From the NCBI GenBank assembly GCA_003963305.1, contig RXJR01000008.1:62001-126000 (forward strand): a stretch of DNA of 64,000 nt, given 5' to 3'. The notes beneath the pieces were generated by a model. That model was not told where the DNA came from and did not search any database. It was given only the letters and a program-made list of their open reading frames with translations. Source of the DNA: Candidatus Melainabacteria bacterium. Lineage in GTDB: Bacteria > Cyanobacteriota > Vampirovibrionia > Obscuribacterales > Obscuribacteraceae. Shown here piece by piece: positions 46,014 through 48,494 of the stretch; within the stretch, counting starts at the first letter, position 1, and each line of letters begins with the position of its first letter. The translations under genes were made by a program, and so were the position numbers.

Positions 46014-46065
46014 AAAAAATGGTGGCGTATGTGGGGTCACTAGGACCGTCACAACGCCACCATTT
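46014..46065 (-). terminator. Terminator of the ParB-like gene
   Basis: On the minus strand AAATGGTGGCG pairs with CGCCACCATTT (46017-46027/46055-46065) and runs into TTTTTT, five bases past the stop codon at 46070. It is a strong rho-independent terminator closing the S41/Bat region. Confidence 0.85.
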
Positions 46066-46069
46066 GAGT

Positions 46070-46411
46070 TCAGTCGCCGACCACGATGGCTTCGATGAAA
46101 CCAGCGTCGGCGAGCTTCGCAGCCATGACGCGATGGCGACCGTCTTCGATGGTGTAGCCACCACCGGCGCGGCGGTGCAGCACGACGCGAACCATATCGA
46201 GATTGCGCTCGAAACGGTCACGCATATCATCGATCTGCTGTCCGTCGCGGCGCAGCAGCTTCTCCCAGGTAGCGTCGGAGATGTAAATCTCGTTGAGCGC
46301 CACCCAGACAGTCGCTTCCTTGTTCTGGCAGTCGTTGTCGCGATCGTCGAAACGATCGTAACCGCGGCTGCGGTAATCGCGGTCAAAGCGGGTGTTGCGG
46401 GACTTGCCCAT
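46070..46411 (-). CDS. Small ParB/sulfiredoxin-like domain protein
   Basis: 113 residues. The N-terminal 30 are Arg/Asp-rich (RSRGYDRFDDRDND), probably disordered. The rest contains the ParB/Srx signature EDGRHRVMAAKLAD (about 92-105), a fold that in ParB binds CTP and in others has nuclease or kinase-like activity. It lacks the HTH and dimer domains of true ParB, so it is not a partitioning protein. AGAAGGAGG precedes the ATG. A strongly structured 5' leader with a 7-codon ORF lies upstream. Codons are GC-rich as in the Bat operon. Confidence 0.8.
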   Translation of the reverse strand: MGKSRNTRFDRDYRSRGYDRFDDRDNDCQNKEATVWVALNEIYISDATWEKLLRRDGQQIDDMRDRFERNLDMVRVVLHRRAGGGYTIEDGRHRVMAAKLADAGFIEAIVVGD

Positions 46412-46432
46412 GATGCCTCCTTCTCCGGGGGC

Positions 46433-46540
46433 ACCTGGTGCACTGCAGCGACGCGGGATTGCGCCGCTCCTAGTCCAGTCGTGTCGGCATCAGGCGGGCT
46501 GGGGTGAAGCGCGCCTGCAGTGCCGACTCATGCACCAGGT
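46433..46540 (-). promoter_or_regulatory. Structured leader upstream of the ParB-like gene
   Basis: TGCACCAGGT (46531-46540) is fully complementary to ACCTGGTGCA (46433-46442), and CTGCAGTG (46515-46522) to CACTGCAG (46441-46448). The long stem would begin right after the stop codon of the 7-codon ORF and end about ten bases before the ribosome binding site of the ParB-like gene. This arrangement is what a leader-peptide attenuator looks like. Confidence 0.45.
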
Positions 46541-46543
46541 CCC

Positions 46544-46567
46544 CTAGAATAGGTTTGGACTGGTCAT
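46544..46567 (-). CDS. Possible 7-residue leader peptide
   Basis: ATG 46567 to TAG 46544 encodes MTSPNLF. The best ribosome binding site of the region (AAAGGAGGT) stands four bases before the ATG, and no longer gene uses it. It precedes the structured leader of the ParB-like gene. An alternative is that a sequencing error hides a longer gene in the overlapping frame 46470-46721. Confidence 0.4.
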   Translation of the reverse strand: MTSPNLF

Positions 46568-46627
46568 GGTTACCTCCTTTCGGTTTGGTGGCACCGCCGG
46601 TGGCAGTGTCATGGTTTCTCCACTGGA

Positions 46628-46665
46628 TTGCACCCCGCCTCAATCTGAATTTCAGCGGGGTGCAA
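46628..46665 (-). terminator. Stem-loop after the S41 peptidase gene
   Basis: TTGCACCCCGC (46628-46638) pairs with GCGGGGTGCAA (46655-46665), 90 bases past the S41 stop codon. No T run, so it may be a partial terminator or a processing site between the peptidase and ParB-like genes. Confidence 0.55.
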
Positions 46666-46754
46666 TGCCGATGAAGATGGCAAGAAAGGTCACAGAGAAC
46701 CTTACTAGCAATCTTCAGCATGGGTGGCTTGGGCTATGTTGGTTGTGCGCCGGC

Positions 46755-48320
46755 CTATTTGCCGTCGCGGGACTTTTTGAAGTCGTCTTCGTTCTTCTTG
46801 CGCAGTTCGTCGCGCTTCTTTTGCAGTTGCGACCGCGCATCAAGCATCGACTTGACTTGCGTCTGCGCTGCTTTCAGCTGAGCGTCGGTGCTGGCATCGT
46901 CTTCATCGAAGTTGGCAGGCTGCTTCACCTCGATGTTGGGAATCACACCCACCCAGTCCATCGCCTCTCCGCCGGGCAGGAATTCGAAGCTCGTGACGTG
47001 CATGCTGCGACCGAATGGCAGCTTGAACACCACTTGCCCGACGCCCTTACCACCCGTCGGCATGCCGATCACAATGGCTCGGTGCGTGGCTTGCAGTGCG
47101 CCGGCGAGAATTTCCGAAGCGCTGTAGCTGTCGCCGTCGACCAGCACCACAACCGGCATGTCTTTCGGCAGCAGGTTGAGCATGCGTTCCTCGGGCTTCA
47201 TGCCGGTAGAGTCCGGATTGGCGCTGGAAGTCTGCGTGCGCAGGGCGAAGTTGGGCTGCACTGCGAGGCGCAGCGTTACCAGGTCATCGTCGTGGCGTTC
47301 GTGCTGTTCGAGGATGGTGCCGTCTTCCAGGAAGAACTCGGCCATCGCTTCCACGTATTGCAGGTTGCCGCCATGGTTGCCGCGCAAATCGAGGATGAGC
47401 GCTTTGCCTTTGGCCGCTTTGGTCAGGGCGTTGAACATCTCCTTCACCGAGAACTGCGACATGAAGTTGTCCAGCTTGATGTAGGAGACTCCGTCGCCGA
47501 GGTCTCTGGAGTGCACCACTGGCACGATGTAGTCGTTGCGGACGATCGTGACGTTGAACTTTTCAGTGGCACCACGTTCGATTGACAGAACCACGGGCAC
47601 ACCGTTGTCGCCATGAAGCAGAGCGACGGCTTCCTCAAGGCTCTTACCCTCGACCGACTTGCCGTCAATGGCGACGATGCGGTCCTTCTTGCGCAGGTTC
47701 TCTCGAGCAGCGGGGCTGCCGTCGATCACCATGGCGATGAAGAAGGGATGTTCTTTCGAGATTGCCTTCGCACCAAGCGTGGTGACCACCAGCCCGGTAC
47801 CGGCAAACGTCGGTTTCTCGCTTGTTTCCTCTGCCTTGGTGTTCACAGGCAGGAAGTAATAGTCGAAGCGCTGATTCAAGCTTCGCACCATCTCCAGACA
47901 GGCAGCGTCTGCACCAGCTTCGGTGTCGAGCTTGCCGTCTTTGGCGTGTTTGTTCTCCCATTCGGCCACCCACTTGGCGCGAACAGCAGCGTCGGTAAGG
48001 GCGATGTGTCTGTCGCGAAGGGCTTCGAAAGTGGCTTTGTACAGTGCGGCCCCATCGAACTTCGCCGGAGTTGCCGACGGCGCGTTCGACGTTGCCTGAC
48101 CAGCCGTACTTGAGCCGGGTTGGGCGCCTGGCAGGGCAGCCGGAGGAGCGGGCTTCTGCACCCGGGTACCGTCGGCCTTCTGCACCCGGGTACCGTCGGC
48201 CTTCTGCACAAGAATTGAGTCGTTGACAGCGTAGCTCTGCGGAACTGAAGGTCCGCAAGCAAGCGTAAGCATCATCACCGCTGCCGTGGCGATGAAGCGC
48301 GCGATTTTATTGGTTTTCAT
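46755..48320 (-). CDS. S41 C-terminal processing peptidase (Ctp/Tsp-like)
   Basis: About 521 residues. Export signal with a possible lipobox (TLAC at about 19-22, not a perfect match). Residues 40-60 hold a tandem VQKADGTR repeat, then a Pro/Ser-rich linker. A PDZ-like domain spans about 190-265 (VIDGSPAARENLRKKDRIVAIDGKSV), followed by the S41 protease core: YIKLDNF, LILDLRGNHGG, the catalytic serine in DGDSYSASE, and the lysine in GMPTGGKGVGQ. It degrades or matures periplasmic proteins. Start 48320 has GGGAG eight bases upstream. Last large gene of the Bat operon, separated by a hairpin. Confidence 0.92.
   Translation of the reverse strand: MKTNKIARFIATAAVMMLTLACGPSVPQSYAVNDSILVQKADGTRVQKADGTRVQKPAPPAALPGAQPGSSTAGQATSNAPSATPAKFDGAALYKATFEALRDRHIALTDAAVRAKWVAEWENKHAKDGKLDTEAGADAACLEMVRSLNQRFDYYFLPVNTKAEETSEKPTFAGTGLVVTTLGAKAISKEHPFFIAMVIDGSPAARENLRKKDRIVAIDGKSVEGKSLEEAVALLHGDNGVPVVLSIERGATEKFNVTIVRNDYIVPVVHSRDLGDGVSYIKLDNFMSQFSVKEMFNALTKAAKGKALILDLRGNHGGNLQYVEAMAEFFLEDGTILEQHERHDDDLVTLRLAVQPNFALRTQTSSANPDSTGMKPEERMLNLLPKDMPVVVLVDGDSYSASEILAGALQATHRAIVIGMPTGGKGVGQVVFKLPFGRSMHVTSFEFLPGGEAMDWVGVIPNIEVKQPANFDEDDASTDAQLKAAQTQVKSMLDARSQLQKKRDELRKKNEDDFKKSRDGK
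48154..48201 (-). repeat. 24-bp direct repeat in the S41 gene
   Basis: Two identical 24-base units (48154-48177 and 48178-48201) followed by a partial third encode the VQKADGTR repeat after the signal sequence. Such repeats change copy number easily. Confidence 0.85.
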
Positions 48321-48494
48321 GATAGAAGCTCCCACTGCGAAGTTGTGCTTCGCGGGAAAAGGTCACTTCAAGCCGCGTCCGCCGATGTCCGAACAGTCGG
48401 CATCCATGCGCTTCCAACCGGTTGGATGGAGAGCGCAGGAATGCCTCTGCTCGCACGCGACTGCGTACGCGGGGTCTCGTGCCTCTAGTTAGAA

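Follow-up and report, generated by a model that had tools for sequence, protein, structure and literature searches.

A candidate translational attenuator with a very short leader reading frame upstream of a ParB-like gene in Obscuribacteraceae

The ParB-like gene and its leader

The window analysed here is a stretch of 64,000 nucleotides from contig RXJR01000008.1 of a Candidatus Melainabacteria genome, and all coordinates are those of the window unless a locus is named. On its minus strand, a gene for a small ParB-like protein is preceded by a very short leader ORF and by two sequence arms that can pair over a long range. In describing the RNA we use four segments: segment 1 is formed by the leader codons, segment 2 by the stop codon and about 15 nt that follow it, segment 3 by the arm just 5′ of the main Shine–Dalgarno sequence, and segment 4 by that Shine–Dalgarno sequence itself. 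The features are listed below in the order of transcription.

46572..46580, minus strand: leader Shine–Dalgarno sequence AAAGGAGGT, read from the sequence
46544..46612, minus strand: possible 22-codon in-frame leader MTLPPAVPPNRKEVTMTSPNLF, with its own GGAG and an upstream ATG at 46612
46544..46567, minus strand: leader ORF MTSPNLF with stop TAG (ATG ACC AGT CCA AAC CTA TTC TAG)
46529..46546, minus strand: segment 2, the leader stop codon and 5′ arm of the long-range stem
46427..46444, minus strand: segment 3, the 3′ arm of the long-range stem, the end of which has the main Shine–Dalgarno sequence as alternative partner
46416..46421, minus strand: segment 4, AGGAGG, the Shine–Dalgarno sequence of the ParB-like gene
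46070..46411, minus strand: regulated gene, encoding a 113-residue stand-alone ParB/sulfiredoxin-like domain protein, with its ATG at 46411
46014..46064, minus strand: terminator-like hairpin AATGGTGGCGT...ACGCCACCATT followed by a T run, the downstream end of the unit, identified by eye

The leader Shine–Dalgarno sequence and the seven-codon frame reported in a preliminary description of this DNA are both present, exact to the base, when the minus strand is read. The same reading confirms the perfect pairing reported there: the leader TAG is followed by GGG and then, three bases past the stop, by ACCTGGTGCA (46540–46531), whose perfect complement is TGCACCAGGT (46442–46433); the latter lies 21 nt from the ATG of the ParB-like gene. 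A second pairing, of CACTGCAG with CTGCAGTG, is possible as had been proposed, but different inner helices appear in the fold of lowest energy. The 221-nt region folds with an energy of −98.6 kcal/mol (z = −3.96), and none of 200 dinucleotide shuffles is equally stable. Helix 2:3 has an energy of −29.6 kcal/mol, with 16 of its pairs in the lowest-energy fold, and helix 3:4 one of −8.8 kcal/mol. The terminator-like hairpin at the downstream end is absent from our terminator scan because its loop exceeds the limit of the scan. Tandem in-frame starts, consisting of an upstream ATG with its own Shine–Dalgarno sequence, occur also in four related loci (L005, L006, L008 and L031), and would lengthen the leader to 12–22 codons.

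The ParB-like proteins have a variable N-terminus and a DGRHR motif that is invariant in all 21 aligned sequences; the distant relative L025, which is outside the alignment, has DGKHR in its place. The closest profile is phrog_1033 (E 4e-8 for the protein of locus L011 and 1.3e-4 for the window protein). Matches to Pfam and NCBIfam are below the cut-offs, and a profile search of the PDB returned a ParB chain at E 0.13. The AlphaFold2 model has a mean pLDDT of 76, and its best Foldseek matches are ParB, KorB, sulfiredoxin and SbnI, with query TM scores of 0.52–0.59, two of them with E <0.001. The protein is thus predicted to have a ParB/Srx fold, for which the support from sequence is weak to moderate.

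Conservation of the leader and covariation of the stem

The ParB-like gene is present in 22 of 60 genomes in a search of relatives and in 29 of 50 genomes of the family, with the genome of the window counted in both cases. It was found in none of the 385 other genomes of a sample of the phylum, and the matches from that sample include no other known carrier from the family. We oriented 36 loci. Two of these repeat the upstream sequence of another, L027 that of L002 (contig PLZS01000128.1, a Candidatus Melainabacteria MAG) and L035 that of L014, leaving 34 that are distinct. L014 and L035 are on contigs of nearly the same size, their upstream sequences are identical, and their genomes (G028 and G066) belong to different genera, which suggests cross-contamination of MAGs.

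Leaders were chosen by hand from the ORF list of the 34 distinct loci. In 29 of them there is a leader ORF of 3–14 codons behind a Shine–Dalgarno sequence of AAGGA/AAGGAG type. Two distant relatives (L022 and L026) have a leader with a weak Shine–Dalgarno sequence, and no leader was found in three others (L019, L024 and L025). The peptides include MTSPNLF, MTSPRLNSLF, MTAILRM, MTTRLSRM, MTATKLSRR, MKLAR, MTL, MEMLWRQALFL and MKKEKQVAPS, and the 29 stop codons are TAG in 25 cases, TGA in three and TAA in one. The distance from leader stop to main start is 56–222 nt, and the offset between leader and main gene, modulo 3, is 0 in 17 loci, 1 in five and 2 in seven. Since all three possible offsets are represented, the leader is not part of a longer gene from which a frameshift has separated it, which the preliminary description had named as grounds for giving up its proposal. 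The reading as a frameshifted or broken gene fails for the same reason, and programmed bypass is rejected with it, given these frames and the stop-to-start distances.

Six leaders encode a peptide of the type WRxxLF (W-R-x-x-L/P-F), namely L009, L014, L020 and L021 of the 29, together with L022 and L026. Trp, Arg and Phe are invariant in all six. The codons for Arg vary (CGC, CGG, CGA, CGA, AGA, AGA) while the residues are kept, a pattern that points to selection on the peptide itself, which in this group would hence be translated. Peptide conservation is absent outside this group of six, and no common stall signal is visible; this variation makes a single nascent-chain signal unlikely.

The leader stop lies at the foot of the stem, the opposite arm of which adjoins the main Shine–Dalgarno sequence. 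Only two kinds of lowest-energy fold are seen among the 29 loci. In 23 of them helix 2:3 is formed, with 12–16 pairs, and 1–6 nt of segment 4 are paired to leader codons; in the remaining six (L003, L004, L010, L020, L034 and L036) helix 3:4 is formed, and helix 1:2 is also present in four of these. At least one base of the main Shine–Dalgarno sequence is paired in the lowest-energy fold of every one of the 29 loci.

Covariation was assessed by an alignment-free swap test, in which arm 2 of each of 26 loci was paired with arm 3 of the other loci that differ from it at no fewer than 7 of 18 positions (the near-copies L030 and L034 were left out, as was L036). The mean energy of helix 2:3 is −26.0 kcal/mol for native and −15.5 kcal/mol for swapped arms. 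The native value is reached by only 8 of 550 swaps between divergent loci, and the native pairing is better than all of its swaps in 21 of the 26 loci. In the best duplexes, the positions from +5 to +12, counted from the first base of the stop codon, each show three to six pair types, and single positions alternate among G-C, C-G, A-U and U-A across loci. Stem 2:3 therefore covaries. For helix 3:4, which is constrained by the fixed Shine–Dalgarno sequence, 126 of 550 swaps match the native value and support is moderate; the numbers for helix 1:2 (200 of 550) and helix 1:4 (211 of 550) lend these two little support. The preliminary description had regarded a lack of conservation of leader and stem in relatives as fatal to its proposal, and had put forward covariation as a check; both the ORF and the stem are conserved, and the arm swaps bear out the stem.

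No known Rfam family matches the element above its gathering score in the window, in 20 relatives or in L010. The only match in the window at gathering thresholds is the bacterial RNase P class A RNA at 1308–1653 on the plus strand, distant from the element. In the 20 relatives, searched with E up to 0.1, there are three matches, all below the gathering scores and outside the element; the upstream region of L010, searched with E up to 3, gave two eukaryotic families far below gathering, one of which overlaps the stem.

Predicted effect of ribosome position

The cost of opening the main Shine–Dalgarno sequence was calculated for a ribosome at each leader codon, by folding only the RNA 3′ of the leading edge of the ribosome. 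Footprints of 12, 14 and 17 nt were modelled, with 14 nt as the standard setting. At this setting the median cost over the 29 loci is 7.4 kcal/mol in free RNA (range 2.4–16.3), 2.5 kcal/mol for the best leader position, and 10.7 kcal/mol for a ribosome at the last codon. In 28 of 29 loci, the last codon is over 2 kcal/mol costlier than the minimum (29 loci with the 12-nt footprint and 28 with the 17-nt footprint). The corresponding values for the window locus are 7.8 (free), 1.4 (best, at codon 2) and 9.8 kcal/mol (last leader codon). Free RNA is not costlier to open than the best stalled state in two of the 29 loci at the standard setting, in four with the 17-nt footprint, and in four in a first run.

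The preliminary description proposed that a ribosome finishing or stalling on the leader would open the stem. The model predicts this opening of the long stem when the ribosome stands at the final leader codon; a ribosome held early or midway, however, is predicted to leave the long stem intact and the main Shine–Dalgarno sequence free. Finishing and stalling are thus not equivalent in the model: their predicted outcomes are opposite, with a ribosome at the last codon turning the main gene off and a hold early or midway turning it on. The long stem is itself the predicted anti-sequester, and the main Shine–Dalgarno sequence would be covered by the 3′ arm or by the last leader codons. By the folding model, then, a ribosome stalled within the leader frees the main Shine–Dalgarno sequence, and the predicted structures include mutually exclusive pairings, one of which hides it.

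As a control, the segment from the leader start to the main Shine–Dalgarno sequence was shuffled 12 times in each of 27 loci (the near-copies L030 and L034 were left out). The difference between last and best positions is reached by 7 of 324 shuffles, and 25 of the 27 loci exceed all 12 of their own; the exceptions are L009, clearly (6 of 12 shuffles reach the native value), and L013, weakly (1 of 12). The difference between free RNA and best position is a weaker signal, reached by 43 of 324 shuffles and exceeding all own shuffles in 15 of 27 loci, and in L006, L011 and L005 it is no better than in shuffles (10, 11 and 9 of 12 reach it). A chance origin of the stem is rejected on the evidence of the shuffled folds, the switch shuffles and the arm swaps. 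A scan of 51 other ORFs in the window (at least 110 residues long, chosen by length and not all real genes) yielded three combinations of leader and start, with a switch of at most 0.7 kcal/mol. In this set, longer ORFs that overlap the ParB-like gene had taken its place; on its own in the same scan, the gene gives 8.4 kcal/mol.

The position at which the main gene is predicted to be on depends on the leader. In the 11 loci with leaders of up to 7 codons it is codon 1 or 2, which in the model suggests that general or start-codon translation stress is sensed. In the 17 loci with leaders of 9–14 codons it lies 4–8 codons before the stop (4–7 in 12 of them). In the four WRxxLF leaders that were modelled it falls 1–5 codons past the Trp codon, suggesting a sequence-specific stall after that codon. 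Sensing of Trp starvation by these leaders is a weak candidate: a ribosome with the Trp codon in its A site is predicted to leave the main Shine–Dalgarno sequence at a cost of 8.1–14.6 kcal/mol, and the minimum comes 1–5 codons after Trp enters the P site. Transcription attenuation is rejected: a scan of the window for loops of 3–8 nt found no terminator-like site between leader and gene, and the 3:4 hairpin covers the Shine–Dalgarno sequence and is not placed before a T run.

Interpretation, known systems and upstream neighbourhood

The layout of a translational attenuator, which the preliminary description had recognised, is backed by the comparative evidence and by the predicted folds, and we consider it probable that leader and stem form such an attenuator, working in the manner of ermC or toiL. 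Segment 2 would pair with segment 3, the CU-rich end of which can pair instead with segment 4; segment 1 may pair with segment 2 or partly cover segment 4. While a ribosome is held in the early or middle part of the leader, segment 1 would be kept away and segment 2 left free, so that 2:3 forms and the ParB-like gene is on; a ribosome at the leader end would cover segment 2, so that 3:4 forms and the gene is off. The data show conservation, the covariation of helix 2:3 and the energetics of the switch, whereas translation of the leader, stalling on it, the direction of regulation in the cell and an inducer are inferred.

Other explanations must be weighed against this one. In the simplest, which is possible if rather doubtful, there is no stall signal at all: completed translation of the leader would keep segment 2 covered and the gene repressed, and the gene would come on whenever the leader is not initiated. 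This would suit some loci with leaders of 7–9 codons, where opening the free RNA costs little (L011 2.4, L033 3.3, L012 3.7 and L007 4.1 kcal/mol) and the last leader codon costs 9.1–13.8 kcal/mol; it would also suit the free-versus-best difference, which does not rise above shuffles in every locus, and the group in which the peptides vary freely (MKLAR, MNLTR, MNLPR). It does not, however, explain why the WRxxLF residues are kept in six loci, and in L009, L010, L013, L015, L016 and L020 the free RNA is predicted to be at least as closed as the last-codon state, so that the gene would not come on in RNA free of ribosomes.

ParB-like proteins bind nucleic acids, and the stem or hairpins could therefore be a protein binding site, for example for autoregulation by the ParB-like protein, with the short ORF incidental or serving to keep ribosomes on the mRNA. 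That the element was met only before the ParB-like gene (the 51 window ORFs being where else it was searched for) fits this idea, but the arm sequences differ between groups while their pairing is kept, unlike a sequence-specific site, and a leader stop at the start of the 5′ arm together with a strong leader Shine–Dalgarno sequence sits poorly with an incidental ORF; we judge it improbable. There is even less to be said for coupling, re-initiation or a shunt, in which the stem would bring the leader stop beside the main start and terminating ribosomes would pass on. In its favour, the stem has the leader stop at one of its feet and, just past the other, the main start. However, the main gene has its own Shine–Dalgarno sequence and start codon, the leader stop and the main start are 56–222 nt apart, and by the model a ribosome at the leader end would melt the stem and leave the main Shine–Dalgarno sequence closed, which makes this reading very unlikely.

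The preferred reading, a translational attenuator, has several known counterparts, which are cited here from partial texts. In ermC and ermB, a stalled leader ribosome rearranges the RNA and exposes the main Shine–Dalgarno sequence (excerpts of PMC5118997). They share with the present element a short leader ORF and, by its predicted folds, a main Shine–Dalgarno sequence within an inhibitory RNA structure that a stalled ribosome would rearrange; they differ from it in the regulated gene, which here is ParB/Srx-like and not a 23S rRNA methyltransferase; in the leaders, which here are only 3–14 codons long and terminate at the base of the stem; and in the free RNA, which here is weakly closed in several loci. 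Ribosomes stalled on the toiL uORF, which lies upstream of topAI-yjhQ in E. coli, make the ribosome-binding site of the following gene accessible, and start-codon stalls caused by tetracycline or retapamulin suffice for induction; stalls at several positions act, including a termination stall by erythromycin, and there is Rho termination downstream (excerpts of PMC12121999). The likeness is a short upstream ORF whose stalled ribosome opens the site of the next gene, which here is a prediction; the difference is that a ribosome at the leader end is here predicted to close the main site. The vga(A) uORF and a four-codon tetracycline-resistance leader are read out by start-codon stalling (same excerpts). 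As in these, a ribosome on the start codon would probably be the signal in its own right; the genes controlled there confer antibiotic resistance, whereas there is no sign here of a resistance function.

According to the same partial texts, comparable attenuators mostly precede antibiotic-resistance genes, or a toxin-antitoxin pair (PMC5118997, PMC12121999). Among the literature matches listed, seen as excerpts, no such leader is reported before a ParB-like gene or in this lineage, nor is such control of a ParB/Srx-type protein, and as far as can be seen from them the element is therefore a new family within the known translational attenuators. If the reading is right, a poorly studied lineage contains a conserved attenuator with unusually short leaders, and there is a testable entry to the role of small ParB/Srx-fold proteins, as the cause of stalling on the leader should show when the protein is needed.

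One subgroup has an additional RNA, multi-branched and with a conserved core, in the interval that separates the leader from the preceding gene; it is located immediately 5′ of the leader Shine–Dalgarno sequence. Its positions, in the coordinates of each locus, are as follows.

L010, 1894-2005, minus strand: multi-branched RNA
L015, 1273-1368, plus strand: multi-branched RNA
L016, 1242-1372, plus strand: multi-branched RNA
L018, 1922-2045, minus strand: multi-branched RNA

The pattern is GUCACC...GGUGGC...GGGCUGAGAACCC, comprising a GUCACC..GGUGGC hairpin and a stem ending in GGG-CUGAGAA-CCC. It forms a three-way junction in L010 and L015, to which L016 and L018 add a further hairpin; a degenerate version in L017 falls outside the pattern. 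Of 50 family genomes, 4 contain the pattern, each a single time and always before the ParB-like gene. It matches no Rfam family at gathering score, and the alignments were too poor for a covariance model. Speculatively, this RNA may be a sensor that gates translation of the leader. A wider proposal, which we think unlikely though worth stating, is that the whole is a family-specific sensor of translation stress that reads ribosome position on a minimal leader (down to 3 codons) and controls a stand-alone ParB/Srx-fold protein as a new kind of effector for such stress, with the multi-branched RNA of the one subgroup as an unrecognised ligand-binding element gating leader translation.

Five of the 12 loci inspected, namely the window (46755–48335), L004, L009, L014 and L020, have a gene for an S41-type peptidase as their neighbour on the upstream side, assigned by Pfam in the window and by eye in the other four. 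Terminator-like hairpins seen by eye suggest that the peptidase and ParB-like genes are separate units, so no function is inferred from the peptidase. In the window, a perfect 12-bp hairpin without a T run, ATTGCACCCCGC...GCGGGGTGCAAT, is found at 46627–46666, between the S41 gene and the leader.
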